DNA of 25,573 nucleotides, taken from IMG/VR virus record IMGVR_UViG_3300020722_000007, positions 1 to 25,573 of that record; one strand, written 5' to 3'. The translations under genes and the position numbers were made by a program. Shown one piece after another: positions 1 to 23,253 of the stretch (its first letter is position 1; each line of letters starts with the position of its first letter). Under the pieces are notes generated by a model, which had not been told where the DNA came from, searched no databases, and worked only from the letters and a program-made list of their open reading frames with translations. The stretch comes from a virus.

Positions 1-175
1 TAACATACCAGCAGAGGCACAAGAGGAGATAGACCAGATGATGGGCAACCCAAAGAAGGACTACTATCCAACAGAGTTTACAGAGATGTATAACGAAGAT
101 CAACTGGGACAGAGCATCACAAACCTACCTTCGTGGCTATACACAAACTTTAAGTATTTAGCAAGTATTTCCTGA
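1..175 (+). CDS. 3' end of an unidentified phage gene (partial)
   Basis: An open frame enters from the left edge (first complete codon at position 2) and ends at TGA 173-175, giving a 57-residue C-terminal fragment rich in Glu, Asp, Gln, Tyr and Asn. I do not recognise the family. Its codons resemble the native, GC-richer genes until the last ten or so codons (around 147-172), which turn AT-rich just before the HEG element. The stop codon overlaps the first base of the ATATTTAT motif and the RNA element, so this gene and the HEG cassette are directly abutted. No start, domain or function can be given from the fragment. Confidence 0.6.
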   Translation, partial: NIPAEAQEEIDQMMGNPKKDYYPTEFTEMYNEDQLGQSITNLPSWLYTNFKYLASIS

Positions 176-188
176 TATTTATTATAGA
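175..188 (+). promoter_or_regulatory. ATATTTAT candidate promoter motif (in RNA element, copy 1)
   Basis: ATATTTATTATAGA matches the motif found before 13 genes in this window. It lies in the 5' arm of P1a. If it is a -10 box, transcripts starting from it would lack most of that arm. Confidence 0.5.
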
Positions 189-284
189 TAGAAGCTCCTG
201 CATGAGTTATCTATAATAGAACTTATTGGTCCTTTGAGATAGAGAGCATGCAGGCTCTTTGTCACTTTGGACCATTTTTATTTT
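175..284 (+). ncRNA. Kissing-loop RNA element upstream of HEG, copy 1
   Basis: P1a pairs 178-190 with 208-220 (13 bp, one G-U). P1b pairs AGCT 193-196 with AGTT 205-208. Loop L1 is CCTGCATG at 197-204. P2 pairs GGTCC 228-232 with GGACC 269-273. Inside P2, AGAG 243-246 pairs with CTCT 255-258 and presents loop L3, CATGCAGG at 247-254, the exact reverse complement of L1. A conserved linker CTTATT (222-227) separates P1 and P2. A conserved TTTTATTTTATG leads into the HEG start at 285. The same architecture with different loop sequences recurs at three other HEGs. The pairings are seen directly; function is unknown. Confidence 0.82.
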
Positions 285-1004
285 ATGGCATATGTGTATC
301 GTCATATAAGACTAGACAAGAATGAGGTTTTTTATATAGGAATAGGATCAGATAAAAACTATAAAAGATCTTATTCAAAAAAGAACAGAAATATTCATTG
401 GAATAATGTGATTAATCTTACAGAATATAAAGTAGAAATTATGTCAGAAGAATGGTTAACTTGGGAAGAAGCCTGTGAAAAAGAAAAATTTTGGATTATA
501 TTCTATGGAAGAGCAGATCTTAAATTGGGACCTTTAGTTAATATGACAGATGGTGGACAAGGTCAATTTGGTTTTAAACATTCTGAAGAAACAAAACGAT
601 TATATAGATTATCCAGAAAAGGCCATTTAGTTTCTGATGATACTAAAAAAAAGATGAAAGAATCGAATACGGGAAAAGTAAGATCAGAAGAAACTAAATT
701 AAATATAAGAAAATCTAAATTAGGGATATGTTTATCTTTACAACATAGAGAATCAATTTCTAAAGGTCAAAAAAATAGAGTAAAATCAGAATTAGAGAAG
801 GCAAATATTAGCAGAGCTCTTAAGGGAAAATCTAAATCAGAAGAACATAAAAGAAAATTGAGCATATCTAAAATAGGAAATACTAATAGATTAGGAATAA
901 AAAATCCAAAAATACAATGTCCGCATTGTAATAAAATTGGAGGAAATAACGGAATGACTCAGTGGCATTTTGATAAGTGCAAATATAAAAAACCAAATAT
1001 ATAA
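285..1004 (+). CDS. GIY-YIG homing endonuclease with NUMOD3 repeats and C-terminal zinc finger
   Basis: Free-standing homing endonuclease of 239 residues. The N-terminal GIY-YIG nuclease carries YVYRHI then FYIGIG, an acidic E-rich helix (WEEACEKEKFW) and the closing LVNMTDGG. Residues about 95-200 are NUMOD3-type DNA-binding repeats of the pattern HSEETKRLYRLSRKG and SEETKLNIRKSKLG. The C-terminus has CPHC followed by WHFDKC, a zinc finger common in phage HEGs. The ATG at 285 is preferred over an upstream TTG at 267 because all four copies of the RNA element place TTTTATTTTATG exactly here. Very AT-rich codon use, unlike the helicase after it. The first ~96 residues are about 81% identical to the HEG at 22534. 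It presumably cuts near the gap between the upstream gene and the helicase in phages lacking the insert. Confidence 0.9.
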   Translation: MAYVYRHIRLDKNEVFYIGIGSDKNYKRSYSKKNRNIHWNNVINLTEYKVEIMSEEWLTWEEACEKEKFWIIFYGRADLKLGPLVNMTDGGQGQFGFKHSEETKRLYRLSRKGHLVSDDTKKKMKESNTGKVRSEETKLNIRKSKLGICLSLQHRESISKGQKNRVKSELEKANISRALKGKSKSEEHKRKLSISKIGNTNRLGIKNPKIQCPHCNKIGGNNGMTQWHFDKCKYKKPNI

Positions 1005-2729: not shown

Positions 2730-4340
2730 ATGAATATCTCACAGGAAATATTATCAGATATTACAGTACACTTAAAATATTCCAAATACCTCCCAGAACT
2801 ACAGAAGAGAGAGTCTTGGGAAGAATTGGTAGACAGAAACAAGGCAATGCATCTCAAGAAATATCCCAATATGCAAGCTGAGATAGACTGGGCTTATGAA
2901 TTCGTATATGATAAAAAGGTGCTTCCTTCTATGAGGAGCCTGCAGTTCGGTGGAAAGTCGATAGAGATATCTCCTAACAGAGTGTATAACTGCGCGTACC
3001 TTCCTATAGACGACATACACGCTTTCTCTGAGACGATGTTCCTGCTGCTTGGTGGCACGGGAGTAGGTTTCTCTGTACAGAAGCACCACGTTGAGAAGCT
3101 GCCAGAGATAAGGAAACCGAACCCAAAGAAGCACACAAGGTTCCTGATAGGAGACTCGATAGAGGGTTGGGCAGACGCAGTCAAAGCCCTGATCAAGTCC
3201 TATTTCAGAGGTGGATCATCGATTAACTTTGACTTCTCTGACATACGTCCAAAAGGAGCAATGCTAGTTACTTCTGGCGGTAAAGCTCCAGGTCCTCAAC
3301 CACTGAAAGAGTGCTTACTAATGTTAGATGGAATACTCAGCCAGAAAGAGGATGGAGATAAACTCAGCTCGATAGAGGTTCACGACATGGTCTGCCACAT
3401 AGCTGATGCAGTACTTGCTGGGGGTATAAGGAGAGCGGCATTAGTATCACTATTCTCAGCTGACGATGAGGATATGATCTCTTGTAAGACTGGTCAATGG
3501 TGGGAATTAAATCCGCAAAGGGGTAGAGCGAATAACTCGGCTGTACTTTTAAGGAATAGACTTACAAAGGAATTCTTTATGGATCTCTGGAAGAAGATTG
3601 AGAACTCGGGATCAGGAGAACCGGGTATATTTCTTAGTAATGATAAAGATTTAGGAAGTAATCCTTGTATGGAAATTGCACTAAGACCATATCAATTTTG
3701 CAACCTTTGCGAGGTAAATGTTTCAGACGTAGTAGACCAAGAAGATCTTAATGACAGAGTAAATGCAGCAGCGATAATAGGGACTTTACAAGCAGGATAC
3801 ACTAACTTTCACTATCTCAGACCAATATGGCAGAAGACTACAGAGAAAGAAGCACTAATAGGAGTAGGAATGACTGGAATAGGGTCAGGAGTTGCTCAGA
3901 AGCTGGATCTTAAAAAGGCCGCTCTCATAGTGAAAGAGACGAACGCAGCAGTAGCGAAAGCGGTAGGGATAAACGCAGCAGCCCGTTGCACTACAATAAA
4001 ACCGAGTGGGTGCATGATACCAGAAACTGAAATAATAACAAATAAAGGTATTCTCTCATTAGAGGATATTTTTAAAATCAATGGATATGACTTATCTGAT
4101 TTTAAAAATAACGAAAAGCTATTTTTAGAAGTAACAGAGGATATAAAAGTCAAAGATTTAAATGATGAATGGCAACAAATTAATAAATTATACATTAATG
4201 GAGTAGAAGAAACGTTTGATGTGGAGTTTGAAGATGGTTTGGTAGTTACAGTTACAGCAAATCATAGGTTTTTAACTAAAAATAGGGGGTGGGTTAGAGC
4301 AGACGAATTGAAGGATGATGATGATATTATAAATTATTAG
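2730..4340 (+). CDS. nrdJ: Class II ribonucleotide reductase, N-extein plus N-half of split intein
   Basis: N-terminal part of an adenosylcobalamin-dependent ribonucleoside triphosphate reductase (monomeric Lactobacillus RTPR type), which makes dNTPs for phage replication. Extein residues 1-427 contain PSMRSLQFGG, NCAYLPID (Cys88, equivalent to RTPR C119), LLGGTGVGFSVQ, and the active-site run NPCMEI with Cys313 and Glu315 followed 11 residues later by Cys324 (equivalent to C408, E410 and C419). After KPSG the frame enters an intein at Cys428. Its block A is CMIPETEIITNKG and its block B is VTANHRFLT, then a stop at 4338-4340, leaving a 109-residue IntN. The rest of RNR is in the gene at 5540. 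Codons between about 3480 and 3900 are clearly more AT-rich than the flanks. Protein trans-splicing is required to make the enzyme. Confidence 0.93.
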   Translation: MNISQEILSDITVHLKYSKYLPELQKRESWEELVDRNKAMHLKKYPNMQAEIDWAYEFVYDKKVLPSMRSLQFGGKSIEISPNRVYNCAYLPIDDIHAFSETMFLLLGGTGVGFSVQKHHVEKLPEIRKPNPKKHTRFLIGDSIEGWADAVKALIKSYFRGGSSINFDFSDIRPKGAMLVTSGGKAPGPQPLKECLLMLDGILSQKEDGDKLSSIEVHDMVCHIADAVLAGGIRRAALVSLFSADDEDMISCKTGQWWELNPQRGRANNSAVLLRNRLTKEFFMDLWKKIENSGSGEPGIFLSNDKDLGSNPCMEIALRPYQFCNLCEVNVSDVVDQEDLNDRVNAAAIIGTLQAGYTNFHYLRPIWQKTTEKEALIGVGMTGIGSGVAQKLDLKKAALIVKETNAAVAKAVGINAAARCTTIKPSGCMIPETEIITNKGILSLEDIFKINGYDLSDFKNNEKLFLEVTEDIKVKDLNDEWQQINKLYINGVEETFDVEFEDGLVVTVTANHRFLTKNRGWVRADELKDDDDIINY

Positions 4341-4353
4341 ATTAATTTTTACT

Positions 4354-4403
4354 ATTAAGCCTATTATTGTAATTAATCAGATATTTATAATAAAAGGCTT
4401 AAT
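4354..4403 (+). promoter_or_regulatory. Hairpin with ATATTTAT motif before the intein HEG
   Basis: ATTAAGCCT (4354-4362) pairs with AGGCTTAAT (4395-4403), 9 bp, ending one base before the GTG start at 4405. The enclosed loop holds ATATTTATAATA (4381-4392). In read-through RNA the start region would be paired. RNA started at the motif would lack the 5' arm. Confidence 0.5.
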
Positions 4404-4404
4404 T

Positions 4405-5550
4405 GTGAAAAAAGATATAAAAAAGATTAATAGACTGAGACGACTACTGATTCATCTACTTGGAGAAGAGGGGGGCAACAAGAGATGTGCAAATTTAATG
4501 CGAGGGTCTTCTTTAAAAGTATTACAGTTTAAATACGGAAAAGAGTTAGGCTTATTTAAATATAAACAAAAAATAGAAAATGATAAGTTTAAAAATACCC
4601 TAAATGGATTCATTAAAAGATACGGGGAGGAGTTAGGTAGAGAGGAATATTTAGAAAAAAATAGTAAACTTTCAGTTAGTATAAATGCTTTAAAATTAAA
4701 TGGATATAGTGATGATGAAATAAAAGACATTAAAGCAAAACACTCTATTAATTCAAAGACTGACTTGGAAAGCATGATAAAAAAATATGGAGAAAAAGAG
4801 GGTAGATTAAGATATAAAAAGAAAATAGACAGTGGGTATTCTTGTAGAGATTATAAATCTGTAATGAAATATTATGGAGTAAGTGAATTAGAAGCTAAAC
4901 AGTTTGTTAATAAGAATCAATCAAGAGGGTTAGATTATTATATAAAAAAGTATGGTGATAATATAGGAAAGGAAAAATATGATGAGGCTAATAAAAAAAT
5001 AGCATATTCACAGACTAAAGACTATTATATCTCTAAATTTGGAAAAATTGAAGGCTTAAATAGATATAAAGAATTATGTTATAGTAAAGGAAAATCTGGA
5101 AGATTAGAATATTATATAGATAAATTTGGAGAAGTAGAGGGTCGGAATTTATATTCTGATATGATAAAAAAGAAAATTAGTTATTTTCCAGATTTTAGTT
5201 CAAATATAGAAAAAGATTTTAATTTATCACTATATGATTTATTAAACAATAAACAAAAAGAGGTATTTTTTGGTTACCCAATAACAAAACCCTATTTTAT
5301 AAATCTAAACCAGAATGATTATCAAATAAAGTGTATAGTACCAGACATTAAAATAGGAAATACTGTAATTGAATTTGATGGAGATTATTGGCATTCTTTA
5401 CCTAATAATATAGAGAGAGATAGATTAAAGGATAAGATATATGCTAATATGGGATTAAATTTAATTAGAGTTAAAGAATCAAATTATTTAAAAAATAAGC
5501 AATTAGTATTAGAAAATATAATAGAATTAATTAAATATTATGAAAATTAA
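4405..5550 (+). CDS. Vsr-like (EDxHD family) homing endonuclease inside the fractured RNR gene
   Basis: Free-standing HEG of 381 residues between the two halves of a split intein. The C-terminal ~60 residues carry VIEFDGDYWH, then D-R-x-x-KD and a late LIRVKES. This matches the Vsr/very-short-patch-repair fold used by the EDxHD homing endonucleases reported in metagenomic fractured genes. The N-terminal ~270 residues contain about six imperfect repeats of the form KYGExxGxxxYxxxxxK (FKYGKELGLFKY, KRYGEELGREEY, KKYGEKEGRLRY, KKYGDNIGKEKY, SKFGKIEGLNRY, DKFGEVEGRNLY), probably DNA-contact modules. GTG is the likely start. The stop overlaps the ATG of the downstream IntC gene by 11 nt, suggesting coupled translation. 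Very AT-rich. Confidence 0.85.
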   Translation: MKKDIKKINRLRRLLIHLLGEEGGNKRCANLMRGSSLKVLQFKYGKELGLFKYKQKIENDKFKNTLNGFIKRYGEELGREEYLEKNSKLSVSINALKLNGYSDDEIKDIKAKHSINSKTDLESMIKKYGEKEGRLRYKKKIDSGYSCRDYKSVMKYYGVSELEAKQFVNKNQSRGLDYYIKKYGDNIGKEKYDEANKKIAYSQTKDYYISKFGKIEGLNRYKELCYSKGKSGRLEYYIDKFGEVEGRNLYSDMIKKKISYFPDFSSNIEKDFNLSLYDLLNNKQKEVFFGYPITKPYFINLNQNDYQIKCIVPDIKIGNTVIEFDGDYWHSLPNNIERDRLKDKIYANMGLNLIRVKESNYLKNKQLVLENIIELIKYYEN

Positions 5551-6223
5551 AAAAATAACAAAGTCTGGAAATAAATTTACTGTTGACATAGAAGTAGATA
5601 ATACTCATTCATATCAACTAAAAAATAAATCTGTGGTTCATAATACCTCCTCTCTAGTCCTGGGCACATCTTCTGGCATACATGCGTGGCACAGCGAGTA
5701 CTACATCAGAAACATAAGAGTTGGCAAGAACGAGGCCATATACACGTACCTGAGCATATACCACCCAGAGCTGATACAGGACGAGTACTTCAAGCCCCAC
5801 AGCACGGCAGTCATCTCGGTCCCACAGAAAGCGCCAGAGGGTTCGATACTGAGGACAGAGTCAGCGATAGATCTGCTCGAGAGGGTAAAATACTTCTACA
5901 ACAACTGGATCAAACCAGGACACAAGACAGGACAGAACACACACAACATCTCGGCCACGATCTCTATAAAGGACGGAGAGTGGGACACTGTAGGAGAGTG
6001 GATGTGGGAGAACAGGACTTGCTACAACGGGCTTTCAGTGCTGCCATTCTCAGACCACACCTACGTTCAGGCACCTTTCCAAGACTGCGATAAAGAGACT
6101 TACGAAAAAATGATGGAGTCGCTTTCTAACATAGATCTGAGCTTGGTGGTAGAGGCAGAAGACAACACAGACCTTAAGGACCAAGTTGCGTGTGCTGGAA
6201 ATAGTTGTGAAATTAATATATAA
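5540..6223 (+). CDS. nrdJ: C-half of split intein plus C-extein of class II ribonucleotide reductase
   Basis: Residues 1-35 are IntC: a block F-like DIEVDNTHSYQL and the terminal VVHN (block G). The splice junction is Asn35/Thr36, so Thr is the +1 nucleophile. The C-extein (192 residues) begins TSSLVLGTSSGIHAWH. This joins KPSG of the N-half exactly as in intact RTPR (KPSGT...SSG.H). It ends with CAGNSC, the Cys-x4-Cys pair that relays electrons from thioredoxin to the active site. Spliced RNR would be about 619 residues, shorter than the 739 of L. leichmannii RTPR. Native GC-rich codons resume immediately after the intein, while IntC itself is AT-rich. The last ~30 nt turn AT-rich before the next HEG. 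Confidence 0.92.
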   Translation: MKIKKITKSGNKFTVDIEVDNTHSYQLKNKSVVHNTSSLVLGTSSGIHAWHSEYYIRNIRVGKNEAIYTYLSIYHPELIQDEYFKPHSTAVISVPQKAPEGSILRTESAIDLLERVKYFYNNWIKPGHKTGQNTHNISATISIKDGEWDTVGEWMWENRTCYNGLSVLPFSDHTYVQAPFQDCDKETYEKMMESLSNIDLSLVVEAEDNTDLKDQVACAGNSCEINI

Positions 6224-6239
6224 ATTAACTGAATTACAC

Positions 6240-6268
6240 AAGGTCCGCATATTTATTATAAAGACCTT
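6240..6268 (+). promoter_or_regulatory. Hairpin with ATATTTAT motif abutting a HEG start codon
   Basis: AAGGTC (6240-6245) pairs with GACCTT (6263-6268), and the ATG starts at 6269. The loop contains ATATTTATTATAAA (6249-6262). Same arrangement as upstream of the HEGs at 4405 and 10630, with unrelated stem sequence. Confidence 0.55.
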
Positions 6269-7015
6269 ATGATAATTTATAAGACTACAAATTTAGAATC
6301 AGGAAAAATTTATATAGGTAAAGACACAAAAAATGATCCAAGCTATCTTGGATCTGGAGTAAAAATAAAAGATGCTATAAAGAGCTATGGTCGAGATAAG
6401 TTCAAAAAGGGCGTATTAGATCATAGCTCTTCTATTGAGGAATTAAATATAAAAGAGCAATATTGGATCAGCTATTATAATTCTACAAATCCAGAAATTG
6501 GTTATAATATTTCTACAGGAGGGGATGGTGGAGATAATTTTACAAATCATCCAAATAAAGAAGAGCATAGAGAAAAATTACGAAATGCATCAAATACTAA
6601 TAAAGATATTTTACGACATAAATTTGTTGATATTTCTAAAAATTTATGGAAAGACGATGAGTATAGAACTAGCGTAAAAAATGGAGTGGATGCATATTGG
6701 AAAAATGAAGAGAATCTAAAAAAATTCTCAGATAAAATGAAAGATATACTTAGTAATCCAGAATATAGGAAAAAATGGAGTGAATGTAAAAAAGGAGATA
6801 AGAATTATAAATGGTTAGGATTTGCATATTTATATAATCAAGATGGAGATCTAATAAAGAAATTTGATAAAATAACAACAGCAAAGAAAGAGTTAAAGAT
6901 TAATTTTGGAGATATGAATAAAATCAGATCTGGAATAAGAGAGATAATATTGACATCTTCTAAAATAGAAAAGTCAAATTATGAAGGTTTTAAAATAATA
7001 ATAAGCAAGGTTTAA
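6269..7015 (+). CDS. GIY-YIG homing endonuclease downstream of RNR
   Basis: A 248-residue HEG. The GIY-YIG domain is MIIYKTTNLESGKIYIGK with the SYLGSG extension typical of phage members, then an acidic helix (KEQYWISYYN) and GYNISTGGDGG. The centre holds lysine-rich, NUMOD3-like segments (EEHREKLRNAS, NPEYRKKWSECKKG). The C-terminus (LYNQDGDLIKKFDKITTAKKEL and on) looks like a NUMOD1-type helix-turn-helix. It sits 45 nt after the RNR stop, so its target is probably the 3' end of the RNR gene, which encodes the essential C-terminal cysteines. The preceding hairpin abuts its start codon. AT-rich. No Shine-Dalgarno sequence. Confidence 0.88.
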   Translation: MIIYKTTNLESGKIYIGKDTKNDPSYLGSGVKIKDAIKSYGRDKFKKGVLDHSSSIEELNIKEQYWISYYNSTNPEIGYNISTGGDGGDNFTNHPNKEEHREKLRNASNTNKDILRHKFVDISKNLWKDDEYRTSVKNGVDAYWKNEENLKKFSDKMKDILSNPEYRKKWSECKKGDKNYKWLGFAYLYNQDGDLIKKFDKITTAKKELKINFGDMNKIRSGIREIILTSSKIEKSNYEGFKIIISKV

Positions 7016-10604: not shown

Positions 10605-10630
10605 TAAGTATATTTATAATAAAATACTTA
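10605..10630 (+). promoter_or_regulatory. Hairpin with ATATTTAT motif abutting a HEG start codon
   Basis: TAAGTAT (10605-10611) pairs with ATACTTA (10624-10630), whose last base is the A of the ATG. The loop is ATATTTATAATAAA apart from its first bases. Same design as at 6240-6268 and 4354-4403. Confidence 0.55.
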
Positions 10631-11604
10631 TGAATTATCAAAAACATTATAATTTATTAATAGAAAAAGGAAAGAATAGAGATAGTAAAATATTACCATA
10701 TTATGAACAACATCATATTATACCTAAATCAGAAGGTGGATTAGATGATAATTCTAATTTAGTTAAACTAACAGCCAGAGAACATTTTATCGCTCATTGG
10801 TTACTTTATAGAATTAATCCATCAATACCAGCTAGAGCATTTTCTTTTTGGAGAATGTGTAGAGGAAGAGGATCTACTCCTAAGTGTCATTGGATAGTAA
10901 TATCTTCTAGATGTTATGAAGAAGCGAGATTAGCTCACTCTAAAGCAATATCTAAAGCTTTAAGTGGCGTAAAAAAATCACTAGAGCATTCTGCAAAAGT
11001 TGGATTAGCCTTAAGAGGCAAAAAAAGAACTGAAGAGCAGAAATTAAAGATGAGAAAAAAGCATATAATTACAAAAGAGGGTTTAGATAAAATAAAGGAG
11101 ACTAATAAAAATAAAAAGTATTATACTAGAAAAGTGATAATGCTAGATAAAAGCACTTTAGATGAAATAAGAAATTTTGATTCTTTAAAACAAGCTGCTT
11201 TATTTGTAAATCTTAAAAATTCTAATATATGTGCTGCTATCAAGAATGGATCTATTTCTGGAAATTATAGATGGAAATACTTCGATCAAGAATCATATAT
11301 AAAAAAAGAAGATAATACTTTTAAAAGTAGACTAAATTTTATAGGAGATAAAAATCCGAATAAGAGCCCAGAAAAACGTGAAAAATTACGATTAAGATCT
11401 ACTGGTGATAATAATCATAATGCGATTAAGATAATTCAATCTGACTTAGAAGGAAATTATATAAAACTTTGGACATGCATGGCAACAGCCGCAAAAAGTC
11501 TAAATATATGTTCTACCAATATTCAAAAATGTTGTATTGGTAAAAGAAAAAAAGCTGGCGGATATACATGGAAATACAATAACTATAAACACAAACCACA
11601 ATGA
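10630..11604 (+). CDS. HNH homing endonuclease with NUMOD repeats
   Basis: A 324-residue HEG. The N-terminal HNH domain shows YYEQHHIIPKSEGGLDDNSN then LTAREHFIAHWLL, giving the His-His pair, the central Asn and the last His. The middle part has NUMOD3-like segments (LEHSAKVGLALRGKKRTEEQKLKMR). Two NUMOD1-like helix-turn-helix units follow, the second ending GGYTWKY, the usual closing motif. It lies 57 nt after the polymerase stop, and the polymerase 3' end is AT-rich as if co-converted with it. The stop overlaps the next ATG as ATGA. Its target is probably the conserved polymerase motif C region or the sequence just downstream. Confidence 0.9.
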   Translation: MNYQKHYNLLIEKGKNRDSKILPYYEQHHIIPKSEGGLDDNSNLVKLTAREHFIAHWLLYRINPSIPARAFSFWRMCRGRGSTPKCHWIVISSRCYEEARLAHSKAISKALSGVKKSLEHSAKVGLALRGKKRTEEQKLKMRKKHIITKEGLDKIKETNKNKKYYTRKVIMLDKSTLDEIRNFDSLKQAALFVNLKNSNICAAIKNGSISGNYRWKYFDQESYIKKEDNTFKSRLNFIGDKNPNKSPEKREKLRLRSTGDNNHNAIKIIQSDLEGNYIKLWTCMATAAKSLNICSTNIQKCCIGKRKKAGGYTWKYNNYKHKPQ

Positions 11605-13979: not shown

Positions 13980-15641
13980 ATGAGTAAAACACAAAGTCTT
14001 TCAGGTCAAGAACTAAAAGAAAAACTTCTTGTTGGTATTGAAAAACTAAATATGACTGTATCTTCAACATTAGGACCCGGCGGAAGAAATGTAATACTGG
14101 TAGATTCTACTACTGGAGAAATTAAAATTTCTAAAGATGGAGTTTCCGTCGCAAAAAATTTCCATAAATTAGAAGATGAAATTGAGAATATCGGCGCTCA
14201 ATTAGTAAAGCAGGTATCAATTAAATCAGCGAACGAAGCTGGAGACGGCACAACAACTTCGACTCTTCTCGCGACAAAGATGATCCAAGAGGGAATGAGA
14301 GAGATCCGCCAAGGCACCAATGCGGTAGAGGTCAAGGCTGGCATAGACAAGGCAGTAGCAATGGTCATCGAAGAGCTGAAGAAGTTCTCGGTAGACGTGA
14401 GCACAGAAGAGCAGATCAAGCAGGTTGCGACCATATCAGGCAACAATGACACTGAGGTAGGAGAGCTGATCTCTGCAGCAATAGACAAAGTAGGTCGCGA
14501 AGGTCTGATCACGATAGAAGAATCAAAGACAGGAGAGACTACGCTAGAAGTGGTAGAAGGCATGCAGTTCGACAGGGGATACAAGAGCCCGTACTTCGTG
14601 ACAAACAACACTACTATGACCGCTATCCTCGAAGACTGCTACATCATGCTGTTCGACGGCAGGATAAATTCAGCAGCAGAGATCATACCGTTCTTGCAAA
14701 AAGCAAACTCAGAGAACAAGTCCATACTGATCATAGCAGAAGACTACGGAGACGAGGCGCTTGCGTTGATGATCGTCAACAAGATGAGAGGCGTAGTAAA
14801 GGTGTGTGCGGTGAAAGCCCCAGACTTCGGTGATCGCCGTACGCTGCTTCTTGAGGACATGGCGATACTGACTGGCGGAACGGTAATGTCAAAGAGCAAA
14901 GGGCACAAACTTGAAAAGATAACGCCCCAAGACATGGATAAGTTCTTAGGAAAATCAAGGTTGGCTACAATAAGCAAGGAAGACACGACGATGGTAGATG
15001 GCAAAGGAGACGCAGAGACGATACAAGCAAGGTCTCTGGAGATCAAAGATCAGATAGACAAAGCTCAGTCTTTCTTCGAGAAGGAGAAGCTGCAAGAACG
15101 ACTTGGAAAGCTCATAGGCGGAGTGGCCATCATCAACGTAGGAGGCAACTCTGAGATCGAAATGAGGGAGAAGAAAGACAGGGTAGAAGACGCATTGCTT
15201 GCAACAAAGGCGGCACTGGCAGATGGCATACTTCCTGGTGGCGGTGTGGCTTTGATCAAGGCGATCATAGCGATGAACAGCAAGACTCTGGACTGGAAAG
15301 AGAACGAGAAGATCGGGTTCAAGATAGTCAAAGAGGCGTGCCATGAGCCTTTCAAGAGGATACTCTCAAACGCAGGCATGGACAACTGGTATGAGATCTT
15401 GCACAGCATAAACCAGAAAGACGACCAGTTCACTACGTATGATGCGAAGAACAAGTGCATAGTCAATGGCATAGCAGCAGGGCTTTTGGATCCTACAAAG
15501 GTGGTAACGTCTTCGATCAAGAATGCTAGCGGAGTCGCCGGTACAGTTTTGACTGTTGAATCGGTGGTTTTATCTATTAAATCTAAAAAGGAACAAGAAG
15601 ACTCAGAAAATTCTTTGGGTGGAATGAATTTAGGAATGTAA
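13980..15641 (+). CDS. groEL: GroEL chaperonin
   Basis: A 553-residue group I chaperonin, close to the usual ~545. Visible motifs are TVSSTLGPGGRNVIL, the ATP-binding GDGTTTSTLLA, the apical GMQFDRGYKSPYF, KAPDFGDRR and the second equatorial motif DGILPGGGVAL. The C-terminus is KKEQEDSENSLGGMNLGM, an odd, poorly repeated version of the Gly-Met tail. A second, more canonical tail lies at the end of the HEG downstream. The first ~240 nt (32% GC in 13981-14040) and the last ~100 nt are AT-rich, whereas the body is not (48% in 14341-14400). This suggests both ends were replaced during homing events. It works with the GroES encoded at 13324. Confidence 0.95.
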   Translation: MSKTQSLSGQELKEKLLVGIEKLNMTVSSTLGPGGRNVILVDSTTGEIKISKDGVSVAKNFHKLEDEIENIGAQLVKQVSIKSANEAGDGTTTSTLLATKMIQEGMREIRQGTNAVEVKAGIDKAVAMVIEELKKFSVDVSTEEQIKQVATISGNNDTEVGELISAAIDKVGREGLITIEESKTGETTLEVVEGMQFDRGYKSPYFVTNNTTMTAILEDCYIMLFDGRINSAAEIIPFLQKANSENKSILIIAEDYGDEALALMIVNKMRGVVKVCAVKAPDFGDRRTLLLEDMAILTGGTVMSKSKGHKLEKITPQDMDKFLGKSRLATISKEDTTMVDGKGDAETIQARSLEIKDQIDKAQSFFEKEKLQERLGKLIGGVAIINVGGNSEIEMREKKDRVEDALLATKAALADGILPGGGVALIKAIIAMNSKTLDWKENEKIGFKIVKEACHEPFKRILSNAGMDNWYEILHSINQKDDQFTTYDAKNKCIVNGIAAGLLDPTKVVTSSIKNASGVAGTVLTVESVVLSIKSKKEQEDSENSLGGMNLGM

Positions 15642-15648
15642 AATATAG

Positions 15649-15662
15649 ATATTTATTATAGA
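15649..15662 (+). promoter_or_regulatory. ATATTTAT candidate promoter motif (in RNA element, copy 2)
   Basis: ATATTTATTATAGA at the 5' arm of P1a, 100 nt before the HEG start. Confidence 0.5.
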
Positions 15663-15761
15663 TAGAAAAGTGCCGTAATCATTTATCTATAATAAAACTT
15701 ATTGGTCCATAGAATTATTAGCTATTACGGAGCTGGTATTTTTATAGGACCTTTTTATTTT
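15649..15761 (+). ncRNA. Kissing-loop RNA element upstream of HEG, copy 2
   Basis: P1a pairs 15652-15664 with 15684-15696. P1b pairs AAGTG 15668-15672 with CATTT 15680-15684 around loop CCGTAAT (15673-15679). P2 pairs GGTCC 15704-15708 with GGACC 15747-15751. P3 pairs AGCT 15720-15723 with AGCT 15731-15734 around loop ATTACGG (15724-15730), the exact complement of the first loop. The linker ACTTATT and the lead-in TTTTATTTTATG are conserved. It starts 7 nt after the groEL stop. Confidence 0.85.
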
Positions 15762-16631
15762 ATGAAACTAATATACATTTATGTTAAAAGAAGCCCCCTT
15801 GGTTTACTATATTTAGGAAAAACTATAAAAGATCCATATAAATATAAAGGGTCAGGTAGTAGGTGGTTAAATCATATTAAATTTCATAATTTTACAAATA
15901 AAGATATTGAGACTTGGATATTACACAAAACTGAAGATAAAGAAGATCTTAAAAAGATAGGAGAATATTATTCTATATTATTTAATATTGTAGAATCTAA
16001 AGAGTGGGCTAATCTTAAATTAGAGAGTGGTGATGGAGGAGGGAGTCCATGGACTCAAGAAAGAAGAGATCTTTTTATTAAGATGTTTTCTGGTGATAAT
16101 CATCCAAATAAATCTATAAAAAATAGAGAGATTTTAAAATTATCATGGACTCAAGAAAGAAAAGATCACGTTAGTAAAATTATTAAAGGCTCTAAGATGT
16201 CTGATGTAGGTAAACAGAAAATTAAAGATTCTTGGACACAAGAGAGAAAAGATAAAATGGCTAAGTTAATAAAGGATGGTAAACATGGAAATTTTGGAAA
16301 GGGGCAGAGTGGGGAAAAAAACGGCATGTTTGGTAAAAGAGGAGCAGATCATCCATCATCTAAAAGAATAGCAGAGAATAATCCTATGTTTGGGAGAATA
16401 GGGAAATTATCAGCTAGATCAAGGCCAATTTCTCAATATAAATTAAATGGAGAGTTTATTAAAAATTGGGATAGTATTGCTGATATTCGTAGATATTATA
16501 AAATAAATAATAGTCATATATCGTCAGTCTGTTCTAATAAGAGAAAAAGTTGTTATGGATATATTTGGAAATATACAAAAAAAGAAGAGAACTCAGGAGA
16601 TGGACTTCAAGGTATGGGAGGAATGATGTAA
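15762..16631 (+). CDS. GIY-YIG homing endonuclease ending in a displaced groEL tail
   Basis: A 289-residue HEG from the ATG set by the RNA element's TTTTATTTTATG. GIY-YIG signature: LIYIYVKRSPLGLLYLGKT, then KYKGSGSRW. Three tandem units SPWTQERRD, LSWTQERKD and DSWTQERKD form lysine-rich DNA-binding repeats. A NUMOD1-like unit (PISQYKLNGEFIKNWDS and on) closes with GYIWKY. After this normal HEG end the frame continues TKKEENSGDGLQGMGGMM, a typical GroEL C-terminal tail with native-style codons, then stops 10 nt before the methyltransferase gene. The insertion therefore hit the 3' end of groEL and the old tail is now read as part of the HEG. Confidence 0.9.
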   Translation: MKLIYIYVKRSPLGLLYLGKTIKDPYKYKGSGSRWLNHIKFHNFTNKDIETWILHKTEDKEDLKKIGEYYSILFNIVESKEWANLKLESGDGGGSPWTQERRDLFIKMFSGDNHPNKSIKNREILKLSWTQERKDHVSKIIKGSKMSDVGKQKIKDSWTQERKDKMAKLIKDGKHGNFGKGQSGEKNGMFGKRGADHPSSKRIAENNPMFGRIGKLSARSRPISQYKLNGEFIKNWDSIADIRRYYKINNSHISSVCSNKRKSCYGYIWKYTKKEENSGDGLQGMGGMM

Positions 16632-18905: not shown

Positions 18906-18919
18906 ATATTTATTATAGA
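18906..18919 (+). promoter_or_regulatory. ATATTTAT candidate promoter motif (in RNA element, copy 3)
   Basis: ATATTTATTATAGA, 3 nt after the lipoprotein stop codon. Confidence 0.5.
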
Positions 18920-19018
18920 TAATAATCGAATCCGACTCGACTATCTATAATAAACTTATTGACCTATTAATCTATTGTGATGTCGGATATCCTTTAGTTT
19001 TTTAGGTCTTTTTATTTT
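18906..19018 (+). ncRNA. Kissing-loop RNA element upstream of HEG, copy 3
   Basis: P1a pairs 18909-18921 with 18942-18954. P1b pairs TCGA 18926-18929 with TCGA 18937-18940 around loop ATCCGAC (18930-18936). P2 pairs GACCT 18961-18965 with AGGTC 19004-19008, i.e. three of five pairs are changed compensatorily relative to the GGTCC/GGACC of the other copies. P3 is short (GAT/ATC, 18979-18981 with 18989-18991) around loop GTCGGAT (18982-18988), the exact complement of the first loop. This copy precedes an HNH enzyme, not a GIY-YIG one. Confidence 0.85.
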
Positions 19019-19579
19019 ATGGAAAAATTATATAAACACCATATCGTCCCAAGACACTCTGGAAGTACAGATGATCTAAGCAATATAAAATTAGTTACAT
19101 TGTCAGAGCACGCTGAAGAACATAGATTATTGTGGGAAAAAAATAAAAATCAATATGATTATATTGCGTGGAAGTGTTTATGCGGACAAATACCAGTAGA
19201 AGAGGCAATAAATAAAATTCGTTCCATTAATGGCAAAAAGCAAGGTGAGAAAAACGCTCAATCTGGATGGATGTTAAAAATTAGATTGTTGATGAATCCA
19301 AAAGAAACCGGCAAAAAATCAGCTGAATTTTGCAGAAAAAATAAGATTAATTCATTCTTTGATCCAGAAATATTAAAAGAAGTTAGAAAAAAAGGAGGAC
19401 ATGTTCAAGGTAAAAAAAATGCTGAATCTGGACACCTTCAAAGAATTTCAAAATTACCAAGAAAATATACCAAAAAACAGTGGTATTATAATGAAAATAG
19501 TAGTATATTAATAAAAGATGGAGATCCAATTCCAGATGGTTATATAAAAGGTAGAAAATGCCCACACAAAAACAACTAG
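19019..19579 (+). CDS. HNH homing endonuclease
   Basis: A 186-residue HEG. The HNH core is at the very N-terminus: KHHIVPRHSGSTDDLSNI then LVTLSEHAEEHRLLW, giving the His-His pair, Asn and final His of the motif. The rest is basic with repeated GKKQGEKNAQSG and GHVQGKKNAESG units (about residues 72-83 and 128-139), likely DNA-binding modules. It ends WYYNENSSILIKDGDPIPDG and on. The stop lies 22 nt inside the dCMP deaminase gene, so the insertion preserved a tight overlap with the downstream start. The first ~290 nt of the deaminase gene are AT-rich, in line with co-conversion. Confidence 0.88.
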   Translation: MEKLYKHHIVPRHSGSTDDLSNIKLVTLSEHAEEHRLLWEKNKNQYDYIAWKCLCGQIPVEEAINKIRSINGKKQGEKNAQSGWMLKIRLLMNPKETGKKSAEFCRKNKINSFFDPEILKEVRKKGGHVQGKKNAESGHLQRISKLPRKYTKKQWYYNENSSILIKDGDPIPDGYIKGRKCPHKNN

Positions 19580-20658: not shown

Positions 20659-21609
20659 ATGATAAATGATTATTATATTTACAAAGTTACTCACAAGATT
20701 ACTAATGAATATTATATAGGACTAAGATCTAGAATTAAAGATTTGTTATTAGATTTAGATTGGATAGAAAAAGATTTTTATTTTGGATCTCAACAGGGTT
20801 GGAAAGAAATCAAAAATTTATCTCAAAAAGAAAAATCACTGATTTTTAATAAAGAAATTTTACGAGTATTAAATCAAGTTACACAAGAATATGCATCTAG
20901 TATAGAAATGTCTTATATACTTAAATATATAAAAGACGAAAAAAATAAAAATTATACATCTAGTACAAATGGTGGGTGGCCTACTGGAAATAAAAATCCA
21001 TCTTCTATAAGTAGAAAAAATAAAATTCCATTAAATTCAATAGTTTTTTTTAGAGATGAACCTTATAGATTAAATCAACTACTTAAATTTTTTAACTTAG
21101 AGGAATTATATGATTTAGTTAAAAATAAGCACGTACTTTATTATAAAGATTATTTAAAGGGGAATTTTTATAATCATACTAAAAAATTAGTTATTTTTAA
21201 TGAAGTTAAATCAGCTTTAGAGTGGTGTGCAGATAATAGATTAAATATAGATAAAACTCTTAAGTCAACAGGATTATTAAAGTGGTATTTAGAAAAAAAT
21301 AATATAAACTATAGAGAAATTACTAAAGCAGAATTATTAAAAATTCTAAGTACTTGTCAAATTGGAATAAAAAAACCAGGAGTTTCATTAGCAATGAAAA
21401 TAAATAATCCATCAAAAAGACAAGATGTTAGAGATAAAATAAGTAAAGCTACAAAAGGGAAAAAAAAGAAAGTTAATAATAGTAGTGAATCAAGAGAAAA
21501 AAGGAGATTAAGTCGAATTGGGAAAAAACATTCTAAAGAGACTAGAGAAAAGATGAGTATTTCAAATAAAAAAGCTTGGGAAAAAAGAAGAGTAAGTCAT
21601 GAAAAATAA
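20659..21609 (+). CDS. GIY-YIG homing endonuclease
   Basis: A 316-residue HEG. The GIY-YIG core is DYYIYKVTHKITNEYYIGLRS, followed by a longer spacer (FYFGSQQGWKEIKNL) and YTSSTNGGWPTGNKNPSS in place of the more common NxTxGG. A central region (YRLNQLLKFFNLEELYDLV) is of unknown role. The C-terminus has NUMOD3-like units (KRQDVRDKISKATKGKKKK, RIGKKHSKETREKMS). Very AT-rich. Its stop overlaps the next start by 11 nt. It follows the hydroxymethylase, whose 3' end looks co-converted. Confidence 0.87.
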   Translation: MINDYYIYKVTHKITNEYYIGLRSRIKDLLLDLDWIEKDFYFGSQQGWKEIKNLSQKEKSLIFNKEILRVLNQVTQEYASSIEMSYILKYIKDEKNKNYTSSTNGGWPTGNKNPSSISRKNKIPLNSIVFFRDEPYRLNQLLKFFNLEELYDLVKNKHVLYYKDYLKGNFYNHTKKLVIFNEVKSALEWCADNRLNIDKTLKSTGLLKWYLEKNNINYREITKAELLKILSTCQIGIKKPGVSLAMKINNPSKRQDVRDKISKATKGKKKKVNNSSESREKRRLSRIGKKHSKETREKMSISNKKAWEKRRVSHEK

Positions 21610-22420: not shown

Positions 22421-22434
22421 ATATTTATTATAGA
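22421..22434 (+). promoter_or_regulatory. ATATTTAT candidate promoter motif (in RNA element, copy 4)
   Basis: ATATTTATTATAGA, at the 5' arm of P1a. Confidence 0.5.
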
Positions 22435-22533
22435 TTATATTACGACTACGACACGTAATCTATAATAAACTTATTGGTCCATTCAATCTCAGAAGGTCGT
22501 AGCTCTGAAGATTTTTTGGACCACTTTTATTTT
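22421..22533 (+). ncRNA. Kissing-loop RNA element upstream of HEG, copy 4
   Basis: P1a pairs 22424-22437 with 22456-22469 (14 bp). P1b TTACG (22440-22444) faces CGTAA (22454-22458), partly competing with P1a. The apical loop contains CTACGAC (22446-22452). P2 pairs GGTCC 22476-22480 with GGACC 22518-22522. P3 pairs CAGA-A-G (22490-22495, A94 bulged) with CTCTG (22503-22507) around GTCGTAG (22496-22502), the exact complement of the first loop. Linker CTTATT and lead-in TTTTATTTTATG conserved. Confidence 0.85.
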
Positions 22534-23253
22534 ATGGCATACATATATAGACATATTAGACTAGATAAGAATGAAGTTTTCTATATCGGGATAGGATCAG
22601 ATAAAAATTATAAAAGAGCGCATACAAAAAAGAATAGAAATAAATACTGGCATAATATAGTAAATCTTACTGATTATAGAGTAGAAATAATCTCAGAAGA
22701 ATGGTTAACTTGGGAAGAATCTTGTGAAAAAGAAAAATTTTGGATTATATTTTATGGCAGAGCAGATTTAAAAAAAGGGACATTAGTTAATATGACAGAT
22801 GGAGGAGATGGAGCGCTTGGGTCTATACTTACAGAAGAAAGAAAAAGACTTATAAGTAAAACTCATAAAGGAAAAAAATTAACAGAAGATCACAAAAGAA
22901 AAATTAGCATCTCTCATAAAGGAATTTCTAATGGACCATGTTCTGAAAAAACTAAGAAAAAAAGAAGTATAGCATTAACAGGAAAAAAACGATCTAAAGA
23001 GACTAAGAAAAAATTAAGTGACGCTCAAAGAGGAAAACATTATTCTGAAGAATCAAGAAAAAAAATGAGTGATCTAAAAAAAGGAGAAAAAAATTATAAC
23101 TTTGGAAAACCCGCGCATAATAGAAGAAAAGTAATAAATTTAGAAACCGGAGAAATATATGATTCTGTTAAACTTGCATCTATAATAAATCATATACACA
23201 AATCTACAATGAATTTATTAATTAAAAAAGGAATAAGATTTAAATATTATTAA
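22534..23253 (+). CDS. GIY-YIG homing endonuclease, paralog of the one at 285
   Basis: A 239-residue HEG. The first 96 residues match the HEG at 285 at about 78 positions (MAYIYRHIRLDKNEVFYIGI and on, through LVNMTDGG). After that the two diverge. This one has NUMOD3 repeats (LTEERKRLISKTHKGKKL, KETKKKLSDAQRGKHY) and a NUMOD1-like end (INLETGEIYDSVKLASIINH), with no zinc finger. So a near-identical nuclease is fused to a different DNA-binding part. The ATG at 22534 is set by the RNA element. It sits 3 nt before the RecB-like gene, whose first ~130 nt are AT-rich. Confidence 0.9.
   Translation: MAYIYRHIRLDKNEVFYIGIGSDKNYKRAHTKKNRNKYWHNIVNLTDYRVEIISEEWLTWEESCEKEKFWIIFYGRADLKKGTLVNMTDGGDGALGSILTEERKRLISKTHKGKKLTEDHKRKISISHKGISNGPCSEKTKKKRSIALTGKKRSKETKKKLSDAQRGKHYSEESRKKMSDLKKGEKNYNFGKPAHNRRKVINLETGEIYDSVKLASIINHIHKSTMNLLIKKGIRFKYY

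Follow-up and report, generated by a model that had tools for sequence, protein, structure and literature searches.

A 25,573-nt stretch of viral DNA (IMG/VR record IMGVR_UViG_3300020722_000007), referred to here as the window, carries four copies of a repeat, each ending at the start codon of a putative homing endonuclease gene (HEG). A first-pass annotation of this DNA had read the repeat as a functional RNA that makes a contact between two apical loops, that is set before HEGs and that fits no described family. This raises the questions of whether the fold is real, how widely the element occurs, whether it belongs to HEGs and what it may do directly upstream of an AUG.

Four leader copies and their genes

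All four copies that had been described are present and share one architecture (Table 1). The common order is P1, a AACTTATT linker, P2 around P3, a U-rich run and the ATG. The apical loops of P1 and P3, L1 and L3, are perfectly complementary over 8 nt in c1 and over 7 nt in c2, c3 and c4, and they differ between the copies, exactly as the annotation had it. Its account of P1 stands in part: pairing is kept, but some of the P1 invariance is promoter sequence and not a property of the RNA.

In PHROGs, HEG1 to HEG4 each match a homing or HNH endonuclease family (E 2e-27, 3e-8, 1.4e-5 and 1.3e-24, in that order), HEG3 being the weakest case; the proposal of endonuclease genes behind all four leaders is borne out. 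Pfam matches, to NUMOD3, are found for HEG1 and HEG4 only.

Table 1. Coordinates in the window of the four leaders, the genes behind them and the GroEL gene
Feature	Position	Strand	Parts and remarks
Leader c1	175–287	+	read and aligned; R1 match E 1e-5; late promoter core 176–186; P1 arms 180–190/208–218; L1 CCTGCATG 197–204; linker AACTTATT 220–227; P2 228–232/269–273; L3 CATGCAGG 247–254; U-rich run 274–284; ATG 285–287
HEG1	285–1004	+	homing endonuclease, NUMOD3 motif; starts at c1 ATG
GroEL gene	13980–15641	+	recoded C-terminal tail; insertion target of c2 cassette
Leader c2	15649–15764	+	read and aligned; R1 match E 7e-5; promoter core 15650–15660; L1 CCGTAAT 15673–15679; linker 15696–15703; P2 15704–15708/15747–15751; L3 ATTACGG 15724–15730; ATG 15762
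HEG2	15762–16631	+	PHROG HNH endonuclease, without Pfam match
Leader c3	18906–19021	+	read and aligned; R1 match E 0.024; promoter core 18907–18917; L1 ATCCGAC 18930–18936; linker 18953–18960; P2 18961–18966/19003–19008; L3 GTCGGAT 18982–18988; ATG 19019
HEG3	19019–19579	+	PHROG homing endonuclease, E 1.4e-5, without Pfam match
Leader c4	22421–22536	+	read and aligned; R1 match E 5.5e-4; promoter core 22422–22432; L1 CTACGAC 22446–22452; linker 22468–22475; P2 22476–22480/22518–22522; L3 GTCGTAG 22496–22502; ATG 22534
HEG4	22534–23253	+	homing endonuclease, NUMOD3 motif

Two classes of leader in phages

When viral contigs are scanned with the pattern AACTTATT-NG-N(45-75)-TTTTATTTTATG, at least 119 stretches match the linker pattern; these form two classes, with a few chance matches among them. 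The long-P1 class, to which the window copies belong, precedes endonuclease-like genes, and the 5′ arm of its P1 is TATTTATTATAGAT or a variant of it. In the short-P1 class, P1 has 4–7 bp and is mostly found behind a TAnnTTTG box; the genes are replication initiators, a DNA methyltransferase and HNH genes. The replication initiators are DUF1376-like (below the Pfam cut-off), DnaD- or replisome-organizer-like, or Lin1244_N. Since many copies stand before replication or methyltransferase genes, the leader is not confined to HEGs, and the annotation's view of HEGs as its setting does not hold. Among the 62 rows listed as 'B', L305 is a chance match and L051 belongs to the long-P1 class.

The linker and the ATG context are biased by patterns that contain them. 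A linker-free scan of the viral contigs, which fixed five of the seven loop positions and still required ATG, yields at least 50 distinct stretches; among the matches listed, 49 have matching loops, and AACTTATT is unchanged in 44 of the distinct stretches. In leaders or sites obtained by other means than the linker patterns, variants of the linker include AACTCATT, AATTTATT and AAATATATT.

Among named phages, Flavobacterium phage immuto has the DNA polymerase closest to that of the window (53% identity). On the basis of this kinship and of short-P1 promoters of the Bacteroidota type, the hosts are probably Bacteroidota. A covariance model of the leader, R1 (see below), has no match in five bacterial genomes, nor in 395 in a lossy search that scored 10 candidates per listed genome. 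With a linker-plus-U-run pattern, hairpins with complementary loops are found in none of the 119 matches listed from bacterial genome contigs and in 99 of the 115 listed from viral loci, duplicates counted; the bacterial search leaves room for leaders in prophages. A different dispersed repeat, with seemingly covarying arms and at least eight copies, was a chance catch of the linker pattern in the Candidatus Symbiothrix MAG Hs463_bin62 (L147, L150, L161, L190, L192, L204, L212 and L214).

Conservation of the fold and of loop-loop pairing

In an alignment of 12 short-P1 leaders, 93.3% of cells are paired, compared with 34–48% in slid controls, and 18 of the 24 pairs show a double change. R1 was built from these 12 leaders of other phages, with the loop-loop pairing and the window copies both left out. 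The model nevertheless finds all four window copies within 959,636 bases (Table 1). At E ≤1 it has 113 hits, comprising 74 strong short-P1 hits, which entered the loop count, 36 long-P1 hits and three weak ones that did not enter the loop counts.

A perfect L1-L3 complement of at least 7 nt is present in 70 of 71 distinct strong short-P1 hits, L1 having been lost in the exception (L082). The same holds for 36 of 37 long-P1 hits (R1 hits with near-duplicates removed by eye), and the remaining one has 6 nt. When L1 is set against the L3 of a differently looped leader, complements of this length are seen in only 40 of 3978 short-P1 and 21 of 1260 long-P1 comparisons. There are about 27 different loop words by hand count, nested words being merged. 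Thus complementarity is not routinely lost. A weak R1 hit outside the 71 (L111, E 0.019) has an imperfect loop complement, two other weak hits look like chance (L049 at 6965, E 0.32; L084 minus strand, E 0.75), and two of the 82 short-P1 rows, with loop GGGCAAT, are probably mis-sorted long-P1 leaders.

The alignment of 37 long-P1 leaders has 80.1% of cells paired over the whole structure (slid controls, 31–51%). In the lower part of P1, paired cells make up 93.8% and 3 of the 11 pairs show double changes; the support for this part as RNA is therefore weaker than that for the rest. The loop-loop helix scores 52% and P3 64% in this alignment because MAFFT sets the loops of different groups out of register. 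Taken together, covariation and the counts with true loop partners demonstrate the predicted fold and its loop-loop pairing, and they support the original proposal of a functional RNA.

Whether the loops of one genome are also kept different from each other was considered separately. No loop is shared among 25 long-P1 and four short-P1 within-genome pairs; only 1.7 and 1.0 shared loops are expected, and none is also the outcome in 0.15 and 0.29 of shuffles, with loop lists compiled by hand; orthogonality is therefore not claimed.

Searches for known families

Rfam 15 gives a sole match in the window, to a snoRNA, at E 0.37 and away from the leaders, and in 12 leader loci only tmRNA and tRNA elsewhere. 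At permissive thresholds, with six loci and seven short leader stretches, all matches are far below gathering scores. None of these four sets has a match to HEARO/IscB omega RNA, nor do the window and the 12 loci have one to a group I intron; models of both are presumably contained in the library. The exclusion of these two families, and the statement that no described family fits, are thus upheld in Rfam. In blastn searches of 50,697 named phage records with four leaders, no leader is found, one of the searches giving four weak matches of 21–25 bases, and megablast of the window against named phages also finds no leader. R1 finds none in two whole named phage records and has chance-level hits only in further short stretches. 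One leader was searched against plasmid records and was not found there. A literature search revealed no description, two catalogues of candidate structured RNAs (PMC8040213; PMC2864571) lying outside the comparison. Within the database and literature searches made, the kissing-loop leader is an undescribed RNA.

Promoters and the 5′ end

The genome of immuto, a T4-like Flavobacterium phage of 150 kb, has TATTTATNATA ten times on the plus strand, six minus-strand cases being left out of this count. Eight of the ten begin 12–33 nt upstream of annotated starts, and the genes behind the motif include those for the tail sheath, a tail spike and a tail fibre; the 60 nt upstream of the major capsid gene do not contain it. 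In the long-P1 class the 5′ arm of P1 contains TATTTATNATA, which, from its placement before immuto starts, is read by motif as a phage late promoter. Since this arm doubles as a putative promoter, the conservation of P1 cannot be credited to the RNA alone. The window has nine late promoter cores, all on the plus strand and all before open reading frames. For six of these frames PHROGs gives a match to a homing or HNH endonuclease family; the frame at 4405 has a nuclease match below the threshold only, and no match is found for the frames at 20659 and 25057.

Other putative HEGs of the window have the late-promoter motif without a leader. At 6249–6271 and 10607–10632, leaderless HEGs have the late-promoter motif in a short hairpin that touches the start codon, a T4-like layout. 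The ribonucleotide reductase gene (2730–6223) is apparently split by an intein, and this apparent intein holds a nuclease-like open reading frame (4405–5550) with its own late-promoter motif in a long predicted hairpin.

In 73 of 82 short-P1 leaders, the end of the −7 box lies 1–5 nt upstream of the first pair of P1. Among the other nine it is 15–29 nt away in six, and none is found in three. In F. psychrophilum this promoter box lies at −12 to −5 (PMC9723704). From the two positions together, P1 would start at about +1, and we infer that transcription starts at or near P1. For the long-P1 class a start site is proposed from the likeness to the T4 arrangement.

Distance to the AUG and start context

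The last G or C lies 9–13 nt before the AUG in 47 of the 49 linker-free leaders listed, most commonly 11 nt, and 7 nt in the other two; in the long-P1 class it lies at 9–12 nt in 33 of 35 rows with a readable end and at 5 nt in two. This spacing is kept before unrelated genes, and it is partly selected by the search patterns, the ATG required in the linker-free scan included. The U run begins directly after P2 or one or two bases on. It holds one A in 44 of the 49 leaders listed; among 35 long-P1 leaders, 34 have one or two. In the same 49, position −3 is U in 36 and A in 13, and position −6 is U in 44 and A in five. Positions −12 and −13 are C residues of P2 in most leaders, the leader lists being partly chosen by an ATG-context pattern.

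Initiation in F. johnsoniae is favoured by A at −3, −6, −12 and −13, and well translated genes of this species have U less often at −3, as reported in PMC6847099. The starts of 157 immuto genes, listed for comparison, are A-rich at −3 and −6, unlike the leaders. The U-rich start context, which goes against these host rules, could equally mean weak translation.

Mobility of promoter, leader and gene

Insert-free relatives are found for all four sites in the window, and the earlier suggestion that the RNA may be part of a mobile cassette thus gains support. At the c4 site, the flanking genes abut without an insert in 12 of 25 loci examined (47 fetched); of the rest, two carry the insert of the window, one carries another HEG and ten have a different upstream gene. 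The c4 insert in the window begins about 5 nt before the promoter. At the c2 site (15560–16631), the insert is absent in eight of nine GroEL loci examined (13 found); in the window, the tail of GroEL is recoded, and the original C-terminal tail has been captured as the last codons of HEG2. For c3, the upstream gene runs about 12 codons further in two near-identical relatives, and the other seven records have another gene. Five relatives lack the c1 insert.

The left borders of the c1, c3 and c4 inserts lie about 5–12 nt before the promoter core. As judged from these borders, the leader is the 5′ edge of a mobile HEG cassette. An independent HEG at the c4 junction of a relative (L399, 2260–3005) has a late-promoter motif and no leader, and by this example the leader is dispensable for an HEG cassette. 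In Flavobacterium phage Fpv1 (L391, 1270–1501), a leaderless relative of HEG1 and HEG4 follows a stretch resembling a group I intron.

Relatives of one replication gene show how the leader is placed in other phages. Of 159 loci, 80 were kept, and the 58 of these with the gene start present were searched with R1. A hit is found in 57 (26 distinct sequences, many near-identical), directly at the gene in 52 of the loci; in five of the 58 another open reading frame intervenes and is itself preceded by the leader at the usual spacing. On this pattern, the leader belongs to the promoter rather than to one gene.

Possible functions

The position of the leader relative to the promoter motif and to the AUG is established by its sequence. 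Both ends are fixed while promoters, genes and phage types change, which suggests a self-contained element. The reading preferred here, tentatively and at somewhat below an even chance, is that of a portable 5′ leader with an intramolecular kissing loop, which would govern translation initiation at the first gene and probably the stability of the 5′ end. A promoter (late in the window, host-type TAnnTTTG in other phages) would start the message at or next to P1. The P1 loop would pair, nearly always over 7 nt, with the P3 loop, fold the leader and leave the AU-rich linker AACUUAUU single-stranded. The fold would fix the end of P2 mostly 9–13 nt before the AUG, with a U-rich stretch, usually holding one or two A, in between. 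Perhaps the fold loads the ribosome at the AUG in place of the upstream adenines used by Flavobacterium; the folded 5′ end may also protect the message. In the window class, read-through transcripts would extend P1 by about 11 bp, promoter sequence pairing with the 3′ arm of P1. By analogy with T4, the longer P1 may keep read-through RNA in another state, in which it is probably translated less. Promoter, leader and gene travel as one unit in mobile endonuclease cassettes. Several observations speak against this reading: other putative HEGs of the window, and one at the c4 junction of a relative, have the late-promoter motif without the leader, nine short-P1 leaders have no −7 box within 5 nt of P1, and folding predictions made without the loop-loop pairing do not show the start codon freer in late RNA. 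A bolder form of this proposal, which is doubtful, makes the leader a cap-like or internal ribosome-recruiting phage element, acting at a U-rich AUG in bacteria whose ribosomes make no use of Shine-Dalgarno sequences; it would be portable between promoters, phage types and genes and be spread by homing endonucleases as part of their own expression cassette.

Several other explanations bear on the same observations. In T4 I-TevI and segB and in Aeh1 mobE, a late promoter lies in a hairpin and the HEG is among early or middle genes; read-through RNA of such genes has a structure that late RNA lacks, as PMC2988022 describes. A timing switch of this kind, in which the leader lowers translation and long-P1 read-through RNA is silent until late transcripts start inside the hairpin, would account for the late promoter within the 5′ arm of P1, for the strongly paired lower P1 of the 37 leaders and for the setting of the nine window cores, six of them before endonuclease-family genes. 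Moreover, four of the five leaderless cores (4405, 6269, 10630 and 20659) are predicted to fold, in read-through RNA, into promoter hairpins of at least six pairs. However, folding of the RNAs of the four leader HEGs, without the loop-loop pairing, predicts a start codon no more accessible in late RNA than in read-through RNA, and for HEGs without a leader it is not clearly freer. The short-P1 class, in addition, has no promoter inside P1, and its own promoter makes the whole leader. This explanation is regarded as unlikely. Less likely still is pure protection of the 5′ end, whereby a hairpin near +1, tied by the loop-loop helix, keeps nucleases off and has no role in translation. The closeness of P1 to the expected +1 in most short-P1 leaders agrees with it, but the narrow AUG distance and the U-rich start window are left unexplained, and in six leaders the promoter box is 15–29 nt upstream of P1.

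The U run that follows P2, and the persistence of the short-P1 leader at its promoter while the first gene changes, also bring to mind a transcription element, either an attenuator with P2/P3 and the U run as terminator or an antiterminator of the put/EAR kind at the start of an operon. Against this, the U run stops at the AUG and mostly has an A within it, P2 is short, at about 5 bp, and a fixed AUG distance is not something that an antiterminator would require. A simple terminator scan did not call the leaders, which its loop limit of 8 would miss. A role of this kind has a rather low probability. Two further alternatives are very improbable. A DNA-level palindrome, serving as operator or nuclease target, would suit the inverted repeat of the lower P1 over the promoter, with its modest covariation; yet covariation in P2, in P3 and in the loop-loop complement joins segments that are not adjacent, and no promoter palindrome is present in the short-P1 class. 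That the RNA is a ribozyme, or serves the nuclease encoded behind it as a guide, would suit the joint travel of leader and nuclease and the loops that differ between copies, but the loops are constrained to pair with each other, many of the downstream genes do not encode nucleases and no Rfam ribozyme or HEARO match is found. A self-contained leader that would act on translation initiation is retained as the working proposal.

The leader adds a widespread and strongly covarying RNA family to phages whose probable hosts belong to a phylum with poorly understood translation start signals. For initiation that depends on RNA structure and not on Shine-Dalgarno pairing, it would offer a natural case open to testing. 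The HEG cassettes are also an example of a selfish gene that carries, within its mobile unit, a structured leader common to the replication genes of unrelated phages.

Comparison with known systems

Kissing complexes of the ColE1 RNAI/RNAII type consist of two hairpins with 7-nt loops that are fully paired. The leader resembles them in its fully paired 7-nt loops, but here the contact is within one leader and before an AUG. In the leaders of IncI and IncB plasmid repZ/repA genes, a pseudoknot forms by loop-loop contact just upstream of the start of the replication initiator. This is similar to the position of the loop-loop contact in the phage leader, which, however, is found in different organisms and stands also before HEGs and methyltransferases. 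HK022 put and Bacillus EAR are structured antitermination RNAs with which a phage or operon transcript begins. The phage leader shares with these its place at the presumed transcript start, and differs in its narrow distance to the AUG and in being found before single genes in addition to operons.

The T4-type HEG hairpins are like the leader in having a late promoter within the hairpin, a likeness that applies, by motif, to the long-P1 class only. Those hairpins hide a Shine-Dalgarno sequence, whereas the leader has a U-rich run instead. The leader also differs from the T4 type in being a multi-helix fold with an intramolecular kissing loop, and one of its two classes has no late promoter.
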